Shown in pieces: positions 52,693-62,947 of a stretch of DNA of 64,000 bases. Both the position numbers and the translations under genes were made by a program. Under the pieces are notes generated by a model, which searched no databases, was not told the origin of the DNA, and saw only the letters and a list, made by a program, of their open reading frames with translations. The DNA is from Actinomyces faecalis (GTDB taxonomy: Bacteria; Actinomycetota; Actinomycetes; Actinomycetales; Actinomycetaceae), in NCBI RefSeq assembly GCF_013184985.2, contig NZ_CP063418.1:1116001-1180000 (forward strand). Reading direction: 5' to 3'. Position 1 is the stretch's first letter; every line of letters starts with the position of its first letter.

Positions 52693-53348
52693 GTGAGTCG
52701 TGAGACGTTGCAGGAGTGGTTCTCATCCGCCAGGATCAGCCGCTATCGGATCGAGCCGGTCGATGCGTGGTACGTGTGGAACACCCGTATCTCGAAAGCG
52801 TTCTTGGAAGACATTAGTCATGTCGAGGTACTCCTTCGAAACTTCATTGATGTGCGTCTGAGCGCTGATACTGGCATACGGTGTTGGTGGGACTCCCCGA
52901 GCTATCGGCTCGGTGGCTTCCCACGTAACGTCACCAAGGCCGAGGCGCGGCTGCGGCGTGCGGGGCTGGATGCCACCCCTGATCAGATCGTGGCGAGTCT
53001 GTCACTGGATAACTGGCGCTTCCTGCTCATCCCGCGTCTGGAAGCAACCGTGTGGAAAGCCCTCACTGACTTACGTAATGGAGGCATGCCTCACTATCCG
53101 GGCCGTAGTCGAAGTAGCTTCGAAGAAAACGTGGAGCTCATCCGCCACGTCCGCAACCGTGCCTCTCACCAAGAACCCCTCATCAGCGCGAACCCTGACC
53201 AACAGGCTCAGGTTCGCAGGCTTGCCAGCTACGTAACAGCGATCGATACTGTCGCCGCAACATCAACCCCGGCGCGGCCGACTGGATCGCTGCCCACTCG
53301 CGCGTCCTCGATGTCATCGCCCAGCGCCCCGTATCACCAGACCACTAA
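52693..53348 (+). CDS. Abi-like HEPN protein inserted in phage relics, probably frameshifted near the end
   Basis: A HEPN-type protein of the Abi-like family. AWYVWNTRISKAFLEDISHVEVLLRNFID is the conserved N-terminal block, and Arg154-x4-His159 (RNRASH, followed by QEPLI) is the HEPN ribonuclease motif. The reading frame from GTG 52693 runs to 53364 with a Ser/Pro-rich end. At about 53255 the +1 frame gives NINPGAADWIAAHSRVLDV and stops at 53348, which fits the family C-terminus, so a one-base deletion is likely. The motif residues are intact. It lies opposite in strand to, and exactly between, the terminase and portal relics. The start is uncertain; the frame is open upstream to about 52590. 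Confidence 0.65.
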
Positions 53349-53500
53349 CCCGCGTTCGTCGTAGACCAACGCCCCGGTGTCGGTGCTGCCTCCACGAATG
53401 GTGCATGGCGACGACGCCGTCGATCTTCTCCCTGGACTTTTGCTTGCTGAGCTTGATGTTCCCGGCCGGGCCGGTGTGGACGTGGGTGTGGAGTGCCCTA
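53334..53500 (-). pseudogene. Phage terminase large subunit, 3' end only
   Basis: The minus strand reads GPAGNIKLSKQKSREKIDGVVAM and, after a frame change, ALVYDERGLVVW before a TGA at 53334. This is the typical ending of phage large terminase proteins (N-I-K..K..EKIDG.VA, then VYDERGL). The ATPase and nuclease body are gone. It overlaps the tail of the Abi-like gene by about 15 bases. In phages the portal gene follows directly, as it does here apart from the Abi insertion. Confidence 0.7.
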
Positions 53501-53514
53501 GGTTTTTAGGTCCA

Positions 53515-53908
53515 GGTGACTTGAGTGTTGTCCATTGATGTCCAGCCTTATGGGCGATCATCGATTGGGGCTTCTTAGCCACCTCATTGATGTGAGCGGG
53601 AAGCCCGAGCTGGTGAGCCCACTTGATCTCGGCACGCATCCCAGCGGAGACACGGGCGGTGTAGACCTAGATTCCCTCGCACTTGGACAGCAGGATCCGG
53701 TTGAAGAACATCGTCAACTCCCGCTTATCTGGGTCGTTGTCGTCCATGAACTGCGGATAGTGAAGATGCGGAGCCAACGGAATCTGGCTCGCCGCAACAG
53801 CAAACGCGCAGAAACGACGGGCGAGCACGAGGTTGGCTTCCATATCACCCGTATAGGTGAGCAGATGTAGACCAGTGGCCGAAAGGTCTGGAGATTAGTG
53901 GTAACCAT
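53515..53908 (-). pseudogene. DUF4406/DUF7768-like phage protein, decayed
   Basis: From ATG 53908 the minus strand reads LVYICSP, then (after a one-base loss) YTGDMEANLVLARRFCAFAVA, IPLAPHLHYPQFMDDND and an internal TAG replacing Trp, followed by VYTARVSAGMRAEIKWAHQLG. These are the conserved blocks of a nucleoside-2-deoxyribosyltransferase-like DUF common in phages and conjugative elements. The frameshift and nonsense codon show that it is dead. Its tail is duplicated at 51878. Confidence 0.75.
53542..53607. repeat. 66-bp direct repeat, copy 2
   Basis: Same sequence as 51878-51943 except for one base, here in its original context within the DUF4406-like relic. The repeats bracket the portal/Abi/terminase block. 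Confidence 0.85.
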
Positions 53909-54220
53909 GACCGGTTCCTGTTCTGAGAGCCAGGTAGACAATCGCGGGCGCGGGATGCGCCAGGCTCCCACCTGTCGGGCACGGCAGGCACCGAAACCGG
54001 ACACGGCTTGAAAGGCTCTCGCCCACACGCCCCTGAGGGGCAGCGAATCCGGACGGGTCACCGGAGAATTGCTGCGGCAGCCTCGGCATCGACACGACCC
54101 GAGCCGCTGCCGTCCCGGCATGAACCCGGCTAGGTTGTGGGTAACCGTTCAACCCGTCTTGATCTCAGTCGGCAGTGGGCTGGATCTCTGGTGCGGAGTC
54201 GCCGGCTTCGGTACGTGGCG
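53909..54220. other. Non-coding stretch before the AbiF unit
   Basis: About 310 bases with no recognisable protein, tRNA or phage relic. Minus-strand frames have composition but no family resemblance that I can name. Confidence 0.3.
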
Positions 54221-54249
54221 TTGACGAGGCAGCCACGCTGGCATACCGT
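54221..54249 (+). promoter_or_regulatory. Near-consensus promoter of the AbiF unit
   Basis: TTGACG (54221-54226) and TACCGT (54244-54249) are separated by exactly 17 bases, the best sigma-70-type promoter in the window. The predicted start, about 54256-54258, is only a few bases before the structured RNA. Confidence 0.75.
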
Positions 54250-54263
54250 AAGGAGTGATAGAT

Positions 54264-54313
54264 CCCCGGTCAGGCCTCTAGTCCCGCAAGGGACAATGCA
54301 CAAATGACCGGGG
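54264..54313 (+). ncRNA. Structured RNA upstream of abiF-like gene
   Basis: An outer 9-bp stem (CCCCGGTCA, 54264-54272, with 54305-54313) encloses an internal loop and an inner 5-bp stem (54281-54285 with 54290-54294) capped by a GCAA tetraloop of the GNRA class. The unpaired arms are 54273-54280 and 54295-54304. It begins directly after a strong promoter and ends 22 bases before the Abi_2 start codon. A conserved structured RNA (the abiF RNA motif) has been described beside abiF genes; membership here is my inference. CCTTTCATTT follows the stem, so it could also act as a conditional terminator. Confidence 0.6.
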
Positions 54314-54335
54314 CCTTTCATTTCCTAGGAAGTTC

Positions 54336-55277
54336 ATGGTTAAGCGCCGGCTCAGTTATGACGAACAGGTTGAGCTGCTTCAAGAACGCGGTTTGACCGT
54401 CACTGACACCGCATCAGCAGCCGAGTTTCTCTCTCGCGTGAACTACTACCGGCTCTCGGGATACTTCCGTTACTGGCAAGTGGGCCCAGTGGCGGGCGAT
54501 AACCGCTTCCTCGACGGTTCATCCTTTGCAGTGATCCAACGTCTCTACGAAGCCGAGCAAGACCTGATTGCAGTGTGCGACGAGGTCCTCCATCCGATCG
54601 AGGTCCTCCTGAGAACCCGGTTCGCCTACCACTACGCACAGCGTGTCGGAGCGATCGGAGCGTTCGCTCGGGGTGAGGGGTTCACACAATCGCCTGATCC
54701 TCATGATGAACGTGTCGAAGAACATGCGCTGTCGAATCTGGATCGGAGCAAGGAGGCCTTCGTGTCTCACTACCGTGATGAGATCAAGACGGGCAATGCT
54801 TATAGCATCGAAGCGTACGCACGCATGCCCATCTGGGTAGCGGTGGAGGCCTTCTCGTTCGGAAACCTGTCCAGACTCATCGAGGCGTCCAGCAGGTCCG
54901 GAGTGCTGCATGACATGGCAGCATCGATGAACGTCTCTCCAACGACGCTGCCAAGCCAAGTCCGGTCATTCGTCTACCTACGCAACCGCAATGCTCACTG
55001 CGCGAAGTTGTGGAACCACGCTGTTCTCGACCGCCCAGGTATCCTTCCCAATATCGCCCGACGAGCCAAACGAGACCACCGCCAGTTCAGCGATCACTCG
55101 ATCTACAAGATCTTCGTCGCGCTTGACCAAGTCGCTACCAAGACCGGGCTTCAGAAGGATTGGCTCGCCAGCCGCGTCGAACCGATCCTCGCCACGAATG
55201 CTCTTCTCGCCGCTGGCATCGCAACACCAGCCCGCTACGGCGAAATGCCACTACAGATACTCACCGCCGACACCTAG
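54336..55277 (+). CDS. Abi_2 family (AbiD/AbiF) abortive-infection protein
   Basis: A 313-residue Abi_2 protein. The N-terminal SYDEQVELLQERGLTV and FLSRVNYYRLSGYFRYW (about residues 8-48) are the family signature, followed by LYEAEQDLIAVCDEVLHPIEVLLRT. The HEPN ribonuclease motif is Arg216-Asn-x2-Ala-His221 (RNRNAH) in VYLRNRNAHCAKLWN. These proteins stop phage growth, probably by RNA cleavage when activated. AGGAA five bases before ATG 54336 supports the start. The gene is intact, unlike the surrounding phage relics, and is preceded by its own promoter and RNA. Confidence 0.85.
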   Translation: MVKRRLSYDEQVELLQERGLTVTDTASAAEFLSRVNYYRLSGYFRYWQVGPVAGDNRFLDGSSFAVIQRLYEAEQDLIAVCDEVLHPIEVLLRTRFAYHYAQRVGAIGAFARGEGFTQSPDPHDERVEEHALSNLDRSKEAFVSHYRDEIKTGNAYSIEAYARMPIWVAVEAFSFGNLSRLIEASSRSGVLHDMAASMNVSPTTLPSQVRSFVYLRNRNAHCAKLWNHAVLDRPGILPNIARRAKRDHRQFSDHSIYKIFVALDQVATKTGLQKDWLASRVEPILATNALLAAGIATPARYGEMPLQILTADT

Positions 55278-55555
55278 CTCTACGTTGGTTTCAACGACGA
55301 TCTCGTCGTGGACGTGCATCACGATCTGGTGCCCAGCGACGTCGACAGTGTGCATGGCGTGGGTGAGCAGGTCACGCGCGACAGCCTGGTCGATGTTCTC
55401 GACGAGTTTCCCGCCGTAGGTCTCGACCTGGCCCCAGCGGCCTGTGTTCGTGCTGTCGAAGGTGATCGATGTTCCACCGAACCTGTTCCCGCCCAGGCGG
55501 GGCTTCACATACGCCAGCCGACGCCCGGAGAGCAGCTGGATGAACAGATCTCTGT
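55251..55555 (-). pseudogene. Phage-type family A DNA polymerase, fragment
   Basis: The minus strand reads LLSGRRLAYVKPRLGGNRFGG, WGQVETYGGKLVENIDQAVA and then HQIVMHVHDEIVVET, the motif C (VHDE) region of family A polymerases from phages and conjugative elements. Nothing upstream of 55555 continues it and the end (NVELGVGGEYL) is truncated. It overlaps the tail of the abiF-like gene by 27 bases on the other strand. Confidence 0.75.
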
Positions 55556-55925
55556 CTCCACGCTGAGTCGCAGTTGCCCGAGGCTGGTTGGTTGGCGGTT
55601 GGTGATAGCGCCTAGCGTCTTGGTGAGCGTGGGGTTACTGCGTCGAGCGGGTGTGCTAGTGGTTCCTGCGACGACGTCCTGCCTGAGGGCGTTGGCGGTT
55701 CCTACGAGGATGGGCTGACTCTCAGGTGGTCGTGGGCTGGTGTGGTTGATGTTGAGGCCGTGATGTGTGGGTGGGTCTGGTGATGGGACGAGTCGGGACC
55801 TCGTCAAAGCCTGGACCTACCGTACGCCGGCTGAGGCTGAGGAAGAGTCTTGGACCTGCAACCCAGACCACGAGACAACGGAAATCAAGACAAACGCCTA
55901 GAAACAAAACCCAAGGCACTTCATC
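55556..55925. other. Unassigned stretch between polymerase relic and hsdM leader
   Basis: About 370 bases without a recognisable gene. Open frames exist on both strands but have no family features. An AT-richer, A-rich segment at about 55860-55925 could hold the promoter of the restriction operon. Confidence 0.3.
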
Positions 55926-56135
55926 ATGCGTACGTTCACCCTCACCCTCAGGAACCGGCCACCCCAGACAACACCCGGAGCACTAACCAAGGTGATGGGC
56001 TCGACCGGCCCTGAGGGCGAGGATGCTTCGAAGCACCTCGCTCGGTGCGGCGCAGAGTTTGTGTCGGTAGCCGGTGAGAGACTGCGCAAGCACCAGGGTG
56101 GTGCCGATCCCGACGACGAGAATGAGGTCTCATGA
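55926..56135 (+). other. Small ORF overlapping the hsdM start
   Basis: A 69-codon frame starting ATG 55926 (MRTFTLTLRNRP...) and ending GADPDDENEVS overlaps the hsdM ATG by four bases. Its last 14 codons fall in the segment duplicated at 51660. I recognise no family. It may be a real leader gene of the operon or simply open sequence. Confidence 0.3.
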
Positions 56136-57691
56136 CCACTCAGACTGAACGTGCCGAGCTGCACCGGGCCATCTGGCAGGTTGCCAACGACTTGCGAGGC
56201 AGCGTTGATGGTTGGGACTTCAAGGCCTATGTGCTGGGCTTCCTCTTCTACCGCTTCATCTCGGAGAACCTCACGGACTACCTCAACGAAGGGGAGCGCG
56301 AGGCTGGTTATGAGGACTTTGACTACCGCTACATGTCTCGGGCTGACGCCGAGATGGCGCGTGATGGCATCATCAATGAGAAGGGCTTCTACATCGCGCC
56401 CGAGGACCTGTTTGCCAATGTGCGCGAGCGGGCGCCACACGATGAGAACCTCAATGAGACTTTGTCACGGGTGTTTAAGAACATCGAGGCTTCGGCGATC
56501 GGAACGGGGTCCGAGTCGGACCTGCGCGGCTTGTTTGATGACATCGATGTCAACTCCACCAAGCTGGGGCGAACGGTCGCGCAGCGCAACGAGAAGCTGG
56601 TGAAGATCCTCACTGCCATTGGGGACCTCAACCTCTCCTACGGGGACTCCAGCATCGACGCCTTCGGCGACGCCTACGAGTTCCTCATGACCATGTACGC
56701 CTCCTCTGCGGGAAAGTCGGGAGGAGAGTTCTTCACGCCCCAGGAGGTTAGTGAGGTCCTCGCGCGGATCACGGTCATGGGAAAGACTCGGGTGAACGGC
56801 GTGTACGACCCGTGCTGCGGCTCGGGTTCGCTGCTGCTCAAGTTTGCCAAGGTCCTGGGAAAGGAAAATGTTGAGCGGGGCTTCTTCGGTCAGGAGATCA
56901 ACCTGACCACCTACAACCTGTGCCGGATCAACATGTTCCTGCATGACGTGAACTTCTCGCACTTCTCGATCGCCAACGGCGACACGCTGACCGAGCCTGC
57001 CCACTGGGACGTTGAGCCCTTTGAGGCGATCGTCTCTAATCCGCCTTACTCCACCAAGTGGGCGGGGAAGGACGATCCGGCGCTCATCAATGATCCGCGG
57101 TTCTCGCCGGCTGGTGTGCTGGCCCCCAAGTCGAAGGCGGATCTCGCCTTCACGATGCATATGCTGTCCTGGCTCGCAGTGGATGGGACTGCAGCGATTG
57201 TTGAGTTCCCTGGAGTGCTCTACCGAGGTGGGGCCGAGGCGAAGATTCGTCAGTACCTGGTGGAGAACAACTACGTGGATGCGGTGATCCAGCTGCCGCC
57301 AGACCTGTTCTTTGGGACGACGATCGCGACCTGCGTCATCGTGCTCAAGAAGTCCAAAACGGATAACAAGGTGCTCTTTGTCGATGCCTCGAAGGAGTTC
57401 TCCCGCGAGGGCAACAAGAACCGGCTCATGCCTGCGAATCAGAAGATGATCCTGAAAACTCTTGAGACTCGGCAGGACGTTGAGCACGTGGCGACGCTCG
57501 TTGACGCGTCCCAGCTGGAGGAGAACGGCTACAACCTGTCGGTGTCCTCCTACGTCGAGGCTGAGGACACTCGCGAGGAGATCGACATCGTTGAGCTGAA
57601 CGCGGAGATCCAGCGGATCGTGGCGCGCCAGGCAGAACTGCGCGCCAGCATTGATGAGATCGTTGCGGACCTCGAAGGGGATAACGCGTGA
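56132..57691 (+). CDS. hsdM: Type I restriction-modification methyltransferase (HsdM)
   Basis: A 519-residue N6-adenine methyltransferase subunit. The N-terminal HsdM_N domain (TERAELHRAIWQVANDLRGS ...) is followed by the SAM motif Asp226-Pro-Cys-Cys-Gly-Ser-Gly-Ser and the catalytic Asn303-Pro-Pro-Tyr306. It forms M2S for methylation and R2M2S for restriction. GAGG lies five bases before ATG 56132. It overlaps hsdS by four bases (GTGA). A truncated second copy of its 5' end is at 51660. Confidence 0.96.
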   Translation: MTTQTERAELHRAIWQVANDLRGSVDGWDFKAYVLGFLFYRFISENLTDYLNEGEREAGYEDFDYRYMSRADAEMARDGIINEKGFYIAPEDLFANVRERAPHDENLNETLSRVFKNIEASAIGTGSESDLRGLFDDIDVNSTKLGRTVAQRNEKLVKILTAIGDLNLSYGDSSIDAFGDAYEFLMTMYASSAGKSGGEFFTPQEVSEVLARITVMGKTRVNGVYDPCCGSGSLLLKFAKVLGKENVERGFFGQEINLTTYNLCRINMFLHDVNFSHFSIANGDTLTEPAHWDVEPFEAIVSNPPYSTKWAGKDDPALINDPRFSPAGVLAPKSKADLAFTMHMLSWLAVDGTAAIVEFPGVLYRGGAEAKIRQYLVENNYVDAVIQLPPDLFFGTTIATCVIVLKKSKTDNKVLFVDASKEFSREGNKNRLMPANQKMILKTLETRQDVEHVATLVDASQLEENGYNLSVSSYVEAEDTREEIDIVELNAEIQRIVARQAELRASIDEIVADLEGDNA

Positions 57692-58884
57692 GCCGTATTG
57701 ACGACATGATTCGGGAGATGTGCCCCGATGGTGTGGCTTACCAGGAGCTTGGTCATGTAGCAGTTCTCCAACGCGGGACGGCTATTACCAAAAAGGATGT
57801 GGAAGAAGGGGATATCCCTGTAATTGCTGGAGGTACTAAACCTGCGTATTTTGTGGCGAATTCCAATCGATCGGGTGTGACGATCGTCGTTGCAGGATCG
57901 GGTGCGTATGCCGGGCATGTTACCTACTGGGAGACTCCGATTTTTGTTTCGGACGCTTTTTCTATTCAGTGTAACGAGGAGGTGCTGATTCCCCGCTTTT
58001 GCTATCATTTTCTTAAGTATAAGCAGGAGGCTATTCACGCGTTGAAGCGTGGGGGTGGAGTCCCTCATGTTTATGCGAAAGATGTTTCAAGAATCCTAGT
58101 TCCTGTGGTTCCTGTTGAAATTCAACAAGAAGTTGTGAGAATATTGGACCGGTTCACACAGCTGGAGGCGGAGCTGGAGGCGGAGCTGGAGGCGGAGCTG
58201 GAGGCCCGTCGGAAGCAGTATGGGCACTATCGTGATACCTTGATCTCTTTTCCTGAGGATGAAAATTTCTTCCGCACTAGAGGTGTGCGATGGTGTGAGC
58301 TCGGGGATATTGGATCTTTCTATCGAGGAAAGAGATTCACGAAGAAGGATTACGCTGCTCATGGAGTTCCATGCATCCATTACGGTGAGATTTATACTCG
58401 CTATGGAGTGTGGGCGGATCGTACAGATTCTTATCTCGATATATCCTTGGCTGATCGACTCAGATATGCGTTGCCCGGGGATGTTGTCATCGCCGATGTT
58501 GGAGAGACGGTGGAAGATGTTGGTTCTGCTGTCGCATGGACGGGGAATACTCCAGTTGCCATTCATGACCATTGCTTTGCCTACAGGAGTGAATTTGATG
58601 CGCGTTTCCTATCGTATTTGATGAGTACATCATGGTTTCGTCGACGGCGCGCGAAATACGTTGCGAGAACCAAAGTGAAGACCTTGCTTGTCGACTCGTT
58701 CTCGCGGATCAAAGTGCCGGTGATTCAGATCGAAGAGCAGCGTCGCATCGCCGATGTCCTCGACCACTTTGACGCCTTGGTGAACAACCTGTCCTCTGGC
58801 CTTCCCGCCGAGATCGCCGCTCGCCGTAAGCAGTACGAGTACTACCGTGACCGCTTGCTGACCTTCCCTGAAAAGAGGCCCTGA
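57688..58884 (+). CDS. hsdS: Type I specificity subunit (HsdS)
   Basis: A 398-residue specificity subunit with two target-recognition domains (about residues 15-155 and 195-360) and two conserved helical spacers. The central one, residues about 150-190, contains a tandem LEAE run (159-173) followed by ARRKQYGHYRD, matched at the C-terminus by ARRKQYEYYRD. Each recognition domain reads one half of a split target. The recognition domains are far more AT-rich than flanking genes, consistent with domain swapping. The GTG start overlaps hsdM. Confidence 0.94.
   Translation: MSRIDDMIREMCPDGVAYQELGHVAVLQRGTAITKKDVEEGDIPVIAGGTKPAYFVANSNRSGVTIVVAGSGAYAGHVTYWETPIFVSDAFSIQCNEEVLIPRFCYHFLKYKQEAIHALKRGGGVPHVYAKDVSRILVPVVPVEIQQEVVRILDRFTQLEAELEAELEAELEARRKQYGHYRDTLISFPEDENFFRTRGVRWCELGDIGSFYRGKRFTKKDYAAHGVPCIHYGEIYTRYGVWADRTDSYLDISLADRLRYALPGDVVIADVGETVEDVGSAVAWTGNTPVAIHDHCFAYRSEFDARFLSYLMSTSWFRRRRAKYVARTKVKTLLVDSFSRIKVPVIQIEEQRRIADVLDHFDALVNNLSSGLPAEIAARRKQYEYYRDRLLTFPEKRP
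58161..58205 (+). repeat. 12-bp tandem repeat in the hsdS spacer
   Basis: GCTGGAGGCGGA is repeated perfectly at 58161, 58173 and 58185, with a nine-base fourth unit to 58205. Each unit adds four residues (LEAE) to the helix between the two recognition domains, so copy-number change keeps the frame. Confidence 0.92.
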
Positions 58885-58886
58885 CA

Positions 58887-59840
58887 TTGTCTGGTAAGCA
58901 CATCGAGCTTTTTCATGTTGACGGTGAGTCAGGCGGCATCACATCTGCTGATGTCTCCGGATGGACTGGACGCATCCTCACCGGACCACGTGCCGACCTC
59001 AAGCGGCTTCTGAGCCGTGAAGACGCCAATACGAATGGTGTCTACCTCCTGCTCGGAGATGATCCGAGCGCGATAGAAAACACGCGCTGCTACATCGGAC
59101 GCACCGAGAACTTTGCTCACCGCTTTGTCGATCACGACCGCAAGAAGAACTGGTGGGACCGTGCGGTCCTCATCTCCTCACGTGAAGACTCCTTCAACGA
59201 GGGCCACTGGGGATACCTCGAATCCCGCCTCATTGAAATCGCTCAAGCCGCAGAACGATCCACGCTAGACGACAACAAACAGACCCCGCAGCCGCGCAAG
59301 CTTTCTGAGGCTCAGCGTTCAGACGCTGAGGTACTCCTCACCCAGGTTCGCTCTGTGATCCCAGTCCTCGGTGTCTCAGCTCTCCGTTCCCGTCGGAACA
59401 AGCCGGACATTGAACGTCCTGACACGGCTCCGGTAGAATCGCCTGTTTTCTCACTGACGTACAGCAAGAAGCACGTCGAAGCATCTGCACAGGTCATCGG
59501 TGGTGAATTCGTTATTCTCGAAGGCTCAACGGTAGTTGCCACATGGAACATCCGGGGTAACAGCGAGTCGACGCGCCGAGCATATGAGTCCTATCGAGCC
59601 CGTCACACCAAGCTCGTCGAAGATGGTTCTATCGCTGTCCGTGATGGCGTTGGGGTCCTCACGCGCGATATCCCCTTTACCTCTCCCTCGACCGCCGGTG
59701 CGATTGCCCTGGGTAGATCATGCAATGGGCGACTCGCGTGGCGCTGGGGTGACAAGACCTATGCCGACTGGGAAGAGCGTGACCTATCCATAGCATCAAC
59801 GTCACCGGATCCGGCTGCATCAGGGCAGCGGTCTGGCTGA
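58887..59840 (+). CDS. GIY-YIG nuclease-like protein in the restriction operon
   Basis: A 317-residue protein. Its GIY-YIG-like fold is seen as NGVYLLLGDD (residues about 49-58), CYIGRTENFAHRFVDHDRKK and, later, YLESRLIEIA with the catalytic-type Glu. The C-terminal part (AYESYRARHTKLVEDGSI) resembles the DUF4357 domain often fused to it. Such genes recur between hsdS and hsdR, but their role is unproven; accessory cleavage or phage sensing are guesses. Start TTG 58887, two bases after hsdS, with GAGG upstream. Confidence 0.78.
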   Translation: MSGKHIELFHVDGESGGITSADVSGWTGRILTGPRADLKRLLSREDANTNGVYLLLGDDPSAIENTRCYIGRTENFAHRFVDHDRKKNWWDRAVLISSREDSFNEGHWGYLESRLIEIAQAAERSTLDDNKQTPQPRKLSEAQRSDAEVLLTQVRSVIPVLGVSALRSRRNKPDIERPDTAPVESPVFSLTYSKKHVEASAQVIGGEFVILEGSTVVATWNIRGNSESTRRAYESYRARHTKLVEDGSIAVRDGVGVLTRDIPFTSPSTAGAIALGRSCNGRLAWRWGDKTYADWEERDLSIASTSPDPAASGQRSG

Positions 59841-59890
59841 CTCAGATACCGCCGTCGTCCCACTTACTCCTCAAACCTCAGGACCTGCAC

Positions 59891-62800
59891 ATGACCATCA
59901 GCTCTGCCCCCGCCGTCGGTATCGAGCCGATTATTCTCACCGACGAGTCGACCGTCGTCGGTAGCTACGAGGCATCCGAGAAAACGGAACGTGGCTACGA
60001 GTCAGAGGCACAGCTTGAAGCAGCCTTCATCACACAGCTGCAGGCTCAGGCCTACGAGTACGTGCGGTTCAATTCCGAGGCCGAGCTTCTCGCTAACCTC
60101 CGCACCCAGCTCGAGGCCCTCAACGAGTATCAATTCAGCGACGCCGAGTGGAAGCGCTTCCTTGCCGAGTCGATCGCCACACGCTCCGGAGGCGTCGACG
60201 AGATCGTGGAGAAGACTCGCCGTATTCAAGAGGATCATGTCCAGGTCCTCATCCGAGACAACGGTGAGTCCAAGAACATCCGCCTGATCGACAAGCAGCG
60301 CATCCATAACAACCGGCTGCAGGTCACCAACCAGTACGTTGTTGACGACGGTGCCCATTCCAACCGCTACGACGTCACCATCCTCGTCAATGGCCTACCG
60401 CTGGTTCACATCGAGCTCAAGCGCCGCGGCGTTGCCATCCGTGAGGCCTTCAACCAGATCAACCGCTATCAGCGAGACTCCTTCTGGGCCGGAGCAGGAC
60501 TGTTCGGCTACGTTCAGATCTTCATCATCTCCAACGGCACCCACACCAAGTACTACGCCAACACCACCCGCTTCGACCACATCACCGAGTCCACACGCGG
60601 TCGACGCGAGTCCAAGGCCGCCAGCTCCGACTCCTTCGAGTTCACCTCTTGGTGGACTGACTCCGACAACCAGCCCATTCCCGACCTCATCGACTTCGCA
60701 CGCACCTTCCTCGCCAAGCACACACTGCTCGCCGTCCTCACTCGCTACTGCGTCTTCACCACGCAGCACAAGCTGATGGTCATGCGCCCGTACCAGATCG
60801 CCGCCACCGAAGCGATCCTGCGCAAGATCAAGACCTCCAGCCTCAACAAGCAGGTCGGCACCATCGCTGCCGGCGGCTACATCTGGCACACCACCGGCTC
60901 CGGAAAGACCCTCACCTCCTTCAAGACCGCCAAGCTCGCCGCCGGCATGGCGGGTATCGACAAGGTCATCTTCGTCGTCGACCGCAAGGACCTCGACCAC
61001 CAGACGATCAAGGAGTACAACCGCTTCGCTGAAGGCACCGTCTCCGCTAACCAGTCCACCACCAAGCTAACTGCGCAGATCAACGACCCGACCGTCCCGA
61101 TCATCGTCACCACGATCCAGAAGCTGTCCAACTTCGTCGGCCGTCACCGTCGGCACGCCGTCTACGACGGGCACGTCGTCCTCATCTTCGACGAGTGCCA
61201 CCGCAGCCAGTTCGGTGACATGCACACGGCGATCACCAAGGCCTTCCGCAACTACCACCTCTTCGGATTCACCGGCACCCCGATCTTCGCGGCCAATGCC
61301 GGTACAGGCGGCAACGCCATGCTGCGCACCACGCCTCAGGCCTTTGGTGGCCAGCTCCACAGCTACACGATCGTCAACGCCATCGCTGACAAGAACGTCC
61401 TGCCCTTCCGCATCGACTACATCGACACCGTCCACATGCGCACTGACGTCGCCGACGCTGAGGTCAGCGCCGTCGACAGCGAACGAGCCCTTCTCGCGCC
61501 CCAACGGCTCAGCCAGATCGTTACCTACATCCGCGAACACTTCGACGCCAAGACCAAGCGATCCAGCTCCTACACACTCGGCCAGAAGCGTGTCCGCGGC
61601 TTCAATTCGCTGTTCGCCACCGCGTCGATCCCCGCGGCACGGGCCTACTACGAGGAGTTCCGTCGTCAGCAGGAAGGGCTCCCTCGTGACCGGCGGCTGA
61701 GCGTCGGCATCGTCTACTCTTACGCGGCCAACGCCGACGCACCAGGGGAGACCCTCGCAGAAGAGACAGTCGACCCGACTGCCCTGTCTACTGACGATCG
61801 GAACTTCCTCGATCGCGCGATCAAGGACTACAACCAGCAGTTCGGTACCGCCTATGACACCTCGGCCGAGGGCTTCGAGGGCTACTACGAAGACCTCTCA
61901 CGCCGCCTCACCGATCGCAGTATCGACCTCGTCATCGTGGTCAACATGTTCCTCACGGGCTTTGACTCCAAAACCCTCAACACCCTGTGGGTAGACAAGT
62001 CCCTGCGTGCCCACGGCCTCATTCAGGCCTACTCACGCACCAACCGCATCCTCAACTCCGTTAAGACCTACGGCAACATCGTCTGCTTCCGTGACCTGCA
62101 GGAAGCCACTGATGAGGCCATCGCGCTGTTCGGAAACAAGGACGCCGGCGGAATCGTCCTGCTCAAGCCCTACCAGGAGTACCTCCAGGAGTACCTGAGC
62201 AAGATCGCTGAACTACGAAGCGCCTTCGAACCAGGGCAGAGAATCGACTCCGAGTCCGCCCAGAAGGAATTCATTCAGGCTTTTGGGACGATTCTGCGGC
62301 TGCGGAACATCCTCACGAGCTTCGACGACTTCGCTGCCGACGACGTGCTGAGCGAGGCTGACTTCGCCGACTACCGCTCCGCCTACGTCGACCTCTACGA
62401 CGACCTGCGCCACCGCTCGGCATCAGAGAGGGAGGACATCAATGACGACCTCGTCTTCGAGATCGAGCTCGTCAAGCAGGTCGAGGTCGGGGTCGACTAC
62501 ATCCTCATGCTCGTCGAGCAGCACCGAGCGGACAAGGGCGACGGGGAGGACCTCGAGGTCCCAGTCGAGATTACCCGCGCTATCGCCTCCAGTCCCACCT
62601 TGCACTCCAAGCGTGACCTCATCGAGGACTTCGTCCGTTCGGTCTCAGCCAAGGGTGATGTGAGTGAGCAGTGGCGGGCGTTCATTGCTGAGCGGCGTGA
62701 GGCCGAGCTGACAAACATGATCGGCGTGGAGAACCTCCAGGAGGCGGGTACGAGGAACCTCGTCGCCGCTGCGTTGCGTGACGGCGTCGTGCCTGCTGAT

Positions 62801-62947
62801 GGCACAGCCATGAACAATGTGCTACCCCGTATGTCTCGCTTCCACCGGCCGGTGGCCGGGGAGGACTCCCGCGAGGTGAAGAAGGCCCGGGTCCTCCAGG
62901 CTCTGGCTGCCTATGTGGAGCGCTTCCAGGGCCTGGGGGAGGAGTGA
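59891..62947 (+). CDS. hsdR: Type I restriction endonuclease motor subunit (HsdR)
   Basis: A 1018-residue subunit that translocates and cleaves unmethylated DNA. The N-terminal PD-(D/E)xK nuclease has Glu175-Leu-Lys177 (HIELKRRG) after the Asp in YDVTILVNG. The SF2 helicase has Walker A TTGSGKT (Lys339), DECH at 434-437, FTGTPI, and motif VI in AYSRTNRI. The C-terminal helical domain contacts HsdM. All motifs are intact, so restriction should be active. ATG 59891 lies 50 bases after the GIY-YIG gene. Confidence 0.95.
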   Translation: MTISSAPAVGIEPIILTDESTVVGSYEASEKTERGYESEAQLEAAFITQLQAQAYEYVRFNSEAELLANLRTQLEALNEYQFSDAEWKRFLAESIATRSGGVDEIVEKTRRIQEDHVQVLIRDNGESKNIRLIDKQRIHNNRLQVTNQYVVDDGAHSNRYDVTILVNGLPLVHIELKRRGVAIREAFNQINRYQRDSFWAGAGLFGYVQIFIISNGTHTKYYANTTRFDHITESTRGRRESKAASSDSFEFTSWWTDSDNQPIPDLIDFARTFLAKHTLLAVLTRYCVFTTQHKLMVMRPYQIAATEAILRKIKTSSLNKQVGTIAAGGYIWHTTGSGKTLTSFKTAKLAAGMAGIDKVIFVVDRKDLDHQTIKEYNRFAEGTVSANQSTTKLTAQINDPTVPIIVTTIQKLSNFVGRHRRHAVYDGHVVLIFDECHRSQFGDMHTAITKAFRNYHLFGFTGTPIFAANAGTGGNAMLRTTPQAFGGQLHSYTIVNAIADKNVLPFRIDYIDTVHMRTDVADAEVSAVDSERALLAPQRLSQIVTYIREHFDAKTKRSSSYTLGQKRVRGFNSLFATASIPAARAYYEEFRRQQEGLPRDRRLSVGIVYSYAANADAPGETLAEETVDPTALSTDDRNFLDRAIKDYNQQFGTAYDTSAEGFEGYYEDLSRRLTDRSIDLVIVVNMFLTGFDSKTLNTLWVDKSLRAHGLIQAYSRTNRILNSVKTYGNIVCFRDLQEATDEAIALFGNKDAGGIVLLKPYQEYLQEYLSKIAELRSAFEPGQRIDSESAQKEFIQAFGTILRLRNILTSFDDFAADDVLSEADFADYRSAYVDLYDDLRHRSASEREDINDDLVFEIELVKQVEVGVDYILMLVEQHRADKGDGEDLEVPVEITRAIASSPTLHSKRDLIEDFVRSVSAKGDVSEQWRAFIAERREAELTNMIGVENLQEAGTRNLVAAALRDGVVPADGTAMNNVLPRMSRFHRPVAGEDSREVKKARVLQALAAYVERFQGLGEE

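Follow-up and report, generated by a model that had tools for sequence, protein, structure and literature searches.

A putative AbiF-type toxin gene and a variant abiF RNA as its probable cis-encoded antitoxin in Actinomyces faecalis

The window analysed here is a stretch of 64,000 nucleotides (nt) from Actinomyces faecalis (contig NZ_CP063418.1, positions 1,116,001 to 1,180,000 of the forward strand). Our subject is a compact unit on its plus strand, in which a promoter, a hairpin RNA and an Abi_2 gene follow one another in that order across 54221–55277. Judged by sequence comparison and by analogy with characterised AbiF systems, the unit is very probably an AbiF-type toxin with a cis-encoded RNA antitoxin, that is, a type III-like toxin–antitoxin module.

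The gene, abiF (54336–55277, plus strand), starts with ATG at 54336 and encodes 313 amino acids, which are predicted to form a HEPN ribonuclease toxin. Its open reading frame (ORF) matches the Pfam family Abi_2 (PF07751) with 118.2 bits against a gathering cut-off of 25.6 (6.9e-34), PADLOC labels it AbiD (1.3e-44), and NCBIfam matched no family for either ORF tested. The RNRNAH motif (54981–54998) occupies residues 216–221, which confirms the intact Abi_2 gene with a HEPN motif described in an earlier note made from the sequence. The residues R216, N217 and H221 of the catalytic RN-x3-H motif are invariant among 38 Abi_2 proteins, and R216 and H221 align with R210 and H215 of PbAbiF, a HEPN dimer solved with its non-coding RNA (ncRNA). 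The protein also scores as an AbiF fold; in this comparison, VIA-align re-examined Foldseek's own 487 top chains (459 aligned), so that folds missed by Foldseek could not surface. In these comparisons, the 313-residue protein agrees with PbAbiF in both its fold and its catalytic R/H pair. The ratio of nonsynonymous to synonymous substitution rates (dN/dS) is 0.10–0.12 between the window gene and six close copies, and by this measure the gene is under purifying selection.

The promoter (54221–54249, plus strand) consists of TTGACG (54221–54226), a 17-nt spacer and TACCGT (54244–54249). A TAnnnT hexamer starts 12–14 bases upstream of the RNA in 17/18 related loci (7 of them near-identical copies), the exception being L008 with TAGTGC (related loci are cited by L numbers and genomes by G numbers). 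The earlier description of this promoter as near-consensus is overstated: the −10 hexamer has three of six consensus matches, and a strict consensus promoter scan lists no promoter for the site. A putative ribosome binding site, AGGAAG, lies at 54327–54332 (plus strand). A tRNA scan returned none.

Between promoter and gene lies an abiF-type RNA of 62 nt (54257–54318, plus strand), recognised by covariation, by its fold z score and by matches in relatives to R1, a covariance model that we built from four close RNAs, the window RNA among them. Its 5′ end at G54257 is set by the spacing from the −10 hexamer, and its 3′ end would fall near the first T run past the stem. The RNA opens with an unpaired leader, GATAGAT (54257–54263), which is conserved in 13 of 17 aligned RNAs and partly different in L009, L081 (kin of L011) and L111. 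An outer stem of nine base pairs follows (54264–54313), in which 54264–54272 pair with 54305–54313 and whose end lies 22 bases upstream of the ATG, as the earlier note had it. Inside it, a core of two pairs (54274–54299; GC at 54274–54275 with GC at 54298–54299) is kept, with conserved CUCU and ACAAA flanks as in the Rfam family RF03085. The core encloses an apical helix of five base pairs with a GCAA loop (54281–54294; 54281–54285 pair with 54290–54294, loop 54286–54289), which is not in the Rfam model. The 62-nt RNA folds with −26.7 kcal/mol and a z score of −3.42 (0/200 shuffles as good), and a longer stretch around it gives a z score of −3.53. The compact RNA previously proposed (9-bp stem, internal loop and inner stem) was confirmed in the sequence; the proposed GNRA loop is right for the window RNA but is not fixed, with TTTG in L008 and GGTT in L012.

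In an alignment of 17 distinct window-type RNAs, 97.7% of 263 cells hold standard pairs, and two-sided changes occur in 9 of the 16 pairs (27 cells in total). The outer stem is paired in 99.3% of its cells, with two-sided changes in four of the nine pairs and invariance in four. The apical helix is paired in 94.7%, and because all five of its pairs vary on both sides, the helix itself appears to be under selection to pair. None of five covariation measures was reached in any of 500 shuffles, pairing falls to 26–50% when partners are slid by one to three columns, and RNAalifold predicts the same outer and apical helices from the alignment. An earlier set of 12 RNAs, which includes the remnant L066, gave 97.4% pairing and two-sided changes in 8/16 pairs. 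Lack of covariation across homologous loci had been named as a possible refutation; the stem does covary, and the finding survives.

The RNA accompanies the gene in relatives. We count 22 close relatives, window excluded, made up of the 12 loci of the first set and ten further matches above 300 bits (L015, L078–L081, L108–L112); the proteins of L078 and L079 are identical to those of L003 and L005, respectively. An R1 match lies upstream of the gene in 20 of the 22, and the other two have no upstream DNA: the contig of L006 ends at the gene (match from locus base 3), and that of L108 ends five bases past the match. All nine matches of 150–250 bits (38–45% identity; L016, L052, L082, L083 and L113–L117) carry an R1 match as well (E ≤ 8.1e-6). 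R1 finds the RNA in front of Abi_2 genes whose proteins are as little as 38% identical to that of the window. The next loci below 150 bits are L118 (132.9 bits), with no R1 match, and L119 (122.9 bits), with a weak one (E 3.8e-4). Bit scores were used for this grouping because, by identity alone, L032 would join the 38–45% relatives, and because no locus was drawn for further matches of 38–48%; L032 (43% over 79 residues) has a class E hairpin instead of the window-type RNA.

Outside the count of 22 stand the viral duplicates L044–L047; L065 (53% over 74 residues of a gene that is split into two frames but keeps the RNA); L066 (a remnant matching at 73% over 42 residues, its RNA degraded); L063 (50% over 42 residues, with a class C RNA instead); and G786 and G980 (short matches above 50%, no locus drawn). 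The viral pattern scan gave the same four contigs as the viral protein scan. Among 396 Actinomycetota genomes, scanned with stricter filters under which weak matches can be lost, R1 gives a match in three, and in each of them the Abi_2 match lies 17 bases further on; the window is found by construction, and G039 and G171 are independent. An Abi_2 match occurs in 23 of the 396, most of which, besides the R1-positive ones, carry different RNAs. Among 5 genomes of the same family as G039 and 30 of the same order, none but G039 itself gave an R1 match. At two loci a transposase gene (ORF named by eye) lies between RNA and gene: in L111 before the Abi_2 gene and in L113 before a 5′-shortened one.

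The Rfam abiF model, RF03085, has 37 positions and a gathering cut-off of 37 bits. The window RNA shares with it the outer stem, the GC:GC core pair, the GCCUCU and CAAAU letters and the place before an Abi_2 gene; it aligns to positions 1–37 with GCCUCU and GC.CAAAU kept and the apical stretch as an insertion. The two differ in the loop part, and the search misses the cut-off because the model allows 7 nt where the window RNA has 18: the abiF covariance search suggested in the earlier note gives 14.2 bits (96 bases scanned). At gathering level, Rfam has no matches in the whole window, and relaxing the threshold to E 5 over 2.1 kb brings up nothing but a microRNA match due to chance. RF03085 has no match over the own genome and none in 14 control genomes either, so that absence is not demonstrated. 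The window-type loci L109, L110 and L112 give no RF03085 match at E up to 3. The cut-off is passed by all five 38–40% relatives scanned (L016 47.1, L117 45, L116 40, L052 38.4 and L114 37.5 bits), and L065 reaches 51 bits and the far relative L133 41.3 bits. R1, built from window-type RNAs only, finds the RF03085-type RNAs of L016, L052 and L117 at E 1.2e-6, 1.1e-6 and 5.8e-8. Since the window RNA aligns full-length to RF03085 and R1 finds RF03085-type RNAs, the two forms are homologous; on this comparison the window RNA is a variant of abiF RNA and not a member by Rfam's own rule.

An antitoxin role is by far the likeliest for the RNA because of the covariation, the synteny and the protein match to an RNA-bound AbiF dimer. 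The same three lines of evidence support the earlier proposal that RNA and HEPN gene form one unit; of the roles it offered (antitoxin, guide or sensor), nothing supports a guide (no repeat array in 53700–55600) or a sensor. In the mechanism that we propose, most transcripts from the one promoter would stop at the T-rich stretch past the outer stem, giving a short RNA of about 60 nt, and some would read through into abiF. As in the homologous systems AbiF_Cd-RCd22 and PbAbiF, the RNA would bind the HEPN dimer, one per monomer, and block its active site; the contacts would be made by the outer stem and by the internal loop with its conserved CUCU and ACAAA letters. Phage infection or loss of the locus would lower the RNA, and the freed enzyme would cut cellular RNA and stop growth. 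The apical helix, as a presumed lineage-specific extension, may touch the protein or stabilise the RNA.

Several points weigh against this assignment. Past the stem there is a weak T run (CCTTTCATTT), at which the terminator scan lists no terminator. The RNA occurs once, unlike the antitoxin of C. difficile with its two motifs and the ToxIN-type antitoxins with their repeats; as regards ToxIN-like tandem repeats, R1 has one significant match in the window, the other match (E 2.8) being due to chance, and the RNA contains no direct repeat. The RF03085 score, below its cut-off, counts on the same side. As for the covariation, the 17-RNA alignment was fitted to R1 and includes near copies, the two-pair core is without two-sided change, and in the 12-RNA set one of the five measures was reached by 1/500 shuffles.

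To place the window RNA among others, we mapped nine labels (W for the window class, F, Fh, C, D1, D2, E, G and unassigned) onto a FastTree phylogeny of 106 Abi_2 proteins, which has 33 of 101 inner branches open. The labels need 11 changes, against a minimum of 8 and a shuffled mean of 70.6, a statistic that takes no account of near copies, which raise clustering. By label the changes are C 2, W 1 (support 76), F 6, D1 1, D2 1 (support 32), E 1, G 2, Fh 2 and unassigned 2. Class W adjoins a set of F, which is scattered rather than one clade, since it needs six changes. The rows are 106 of the 107 labelled loci (L108 is absent) and include the frameshifted L010 (two ORFs), L008 with a very long branch and the shortened L099. 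Ten labels (L028, L031, L038, L040, L049, L058, L062, L086, L102 and L130) were given by eye before tree building, and label F of L113, from a 1.5-kb search, is unsure. Own copies, duplicates, fragments and loci without usable upstream DNA carry no label (L006, L013, L014, L032, L034–L036, L039, L043–L047, L053, L063–L066, L068–L077, L101 and L136). An F core with an apical helix also occurs in L022, L024, L037 and L122, which suggests more than one origin for the helix. The class-by-clade pattern suggests an RNA also beside many Abi_2 genes annotated without one.

Class C RNAs have the form GACCGGTTCCG ... TCCAGGGCCGGTC in an alignment of 18 of the 19 distinct RNAs; that of L058 was omitted, being separated from the gene by another RNA. 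Their apical helix shows two-sided changes in four of five pairs (22 cells); of 500 shuffles, 0 reach the values for cells, covariation score and percentage paired, 138 that for the number of pairs and 480 that for pair types. Class C stands before Abi_2 in L054–L057, L090, L095, L096, L099, L100, L102–L104, L123–L127, L129, L131, L132 and L134, and less exactly in L106. A conserved class D1 hairpin, GGCCAGCCCCTCTGCCC..GGGCACGGGCTGG, precedes Abi_2 in L084–L089, L091–L094, L097, L098, L105 and L107, and a class E hairpin, ACCCCGCACGCG..GCGAACCAGGCGGGGT, in L018, L020, L021, L026, L038 and L128. The Rfam abiF model has no match at E up to 3 in the loci scanned from classes C, D1 and D2 (L055, L099, L084 and L060; L055 and L099 are C).

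The unit sits in a shared cassette (53900–55283, plus strand) with 86–88% DNA identity in L001, L003, L004 and L005, whose surroundings differ between loci; L010 has 83% identity over 54021–55278. The phage neighbours of L001, L003 and L004 are missing from L005 and L010, and the block therefore seems, on sequence, to travel as a unit. The RNA is identical to those of L001 and L002 over 62 bases. The flanking phage genes are open in L001; in the window one is a fragment interrupted by a stop, and the other is a truncated piece of a polymerase. They fit the earlier remark that no gene other than abiF is intact among the phage relics here; downstream, however, a type I restriction–modification operon (56132–62947) appears to be intact.

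A second hairpin (54148–54189, plus strand) lies upstream of the RNA and is related to the one that L058 has before another kind of Abi_2 gene. The copies of L001, L002, L003 and L078 (also L058) fold; the hairpin is weak in L010, absent in L080 and lost in the window; L004, L005 and L079 were left out of this folding. Because the window copy does not fold, we call it decayed and rejected it as a second working RNA. Its bases 54153–54167 are exactly complementary, over 15 bases, to 54779–54793 inside the abiF frame; 0/300 shuffles reach 15 (best 13), and nine related loci reach only 8–11. L001 and L002 have the same letters within the gene, which places the change in the upstream copy. The match may come from a template switch, may be an antisense element or may be chance in one genome. 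A wider scenario, which we regard as rather improbable, is that Abi_2 toxins of Actinomycetota use six or seven RNA designs (W, F, C, D1, D2, E, G), mostly inherited in lock-and-key fashion with the toxin clade, and that the window-type cassette also bore an orphan D2 RNA, possibly a foreign antitoxin shielding the prophage from other AbiF systems, which decayed here and holds the 15 bases complementary to abiF.

Further upstream, a second ORF with a HEPN-like RNRASH motif (52693–53364) matches PADLOC PD-T4-5 (4.1e-11). Its residues 1–193 are 85–90% identical to two plasmid records of Cutibacterium acnes; beside the annotated plasmid gene with its 273 codons, the ORF looks shortened at both ends and decayed. 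Downstream, the restriction–modification operon holds a PDC-S14 candidate defence gene (58887–59840) between hsdS and hsdR, and together with the AbiF unit it likely forms a defence island.

Alternatively, the RNA might not bind the protein at all and work solely in cis, attenuating the abiF mRNA or serving as its translational leader. Its position in the 5′ leader, ending right before a T-rich stretch and the gene, would suit such a role, and the accessible part of PMC12373285 reports that the C. difficile RNA also reduces abiF expression in cis and that AbiD1 translation is controlled by its 5′ untranslated region. We nevertheless hold this to be quite improbable, given that the conserved letters lie mostly in the leader, core and internal loops and not in a terminator, that the same core binds protein in C. 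difficile (PMC12373285, same part) and that RNA class largely tracks the protein tree, as expected of a binding partner.

That the RNA is a guide or sensor directing the nuclease to targets, as a Cas13-like forerunner, is highly improbable: in 53700–55600, the only stretch searched for repeats, there are no repeats and no array, and the apical helix is not a free spacer, since its sequence varies while pairing stays (two-sided changes in 5/5 pairs), the remainder being highly conserved. A CRISPR guide or CRISPR-Cas13 membership was rejected for want of a repeat–spacer array in that stretch. Both adjoining phage genes are broken or truncated and the second upstream hairpin has no fold, as if hairpin and gene were dead remnants of a decayed prophage; against this, the gene is full-length with a dN/dS of about 0.1, the RNA is unchanged from L001 and the promoter hexamer is kept, which leaves the remnant explanation exceedingly improbable.

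Read as a toxin with its RNA antitoxin, the unit has a counterpart in AbiF_Cd-RCd22 of Clostridioides difficile, which, in the portion of PMC12373285 available, likewise pairs a prophage-borne Abi_2 HEPN protein carrying the R/H pair with an abiF-motif ncRNA directly upstream under its own promoter. There the RNA is reported to neutralise AbiF toxicity in cis and in trans, with the protein as its main partner. RCd22 carries the abiF motif twice in tandem (33 and 35 nt) and is followed by a separate terminator; the window RNA carries the motif once, extended by an apical helix, and no such terminator was found for it. The phiC2 AbiF protein is 26.4% identical to the window protein over residues 2–250. 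PbAbiF with its ncRNA (PDB 8vz6), described in the accessible parts of PMC12737573 and PMC12373285, has 23% identity to it in the aligned region, the comparison being one of proteins. The distribution survey in PMC12373285 names Bacillota and Pseudomonadota, and a text search of the paper found no instance of 'actino'. In the literature searched, which is mostly without subscription papers and includes accessible parts of PMC12737573, PMC12165695 and PMC9964418, no description of the apical-helix form of abiF RNA was found. AbiF modules are the proposed source of CRISPR-Cas13. An RNA clade that goes unrecognised by Rfam, yet is clearly linked to the ordinary form and bears an additional covarying helix, offers a way to ask what in the RNA restrains the toxin and how the two partners evolve with one another.
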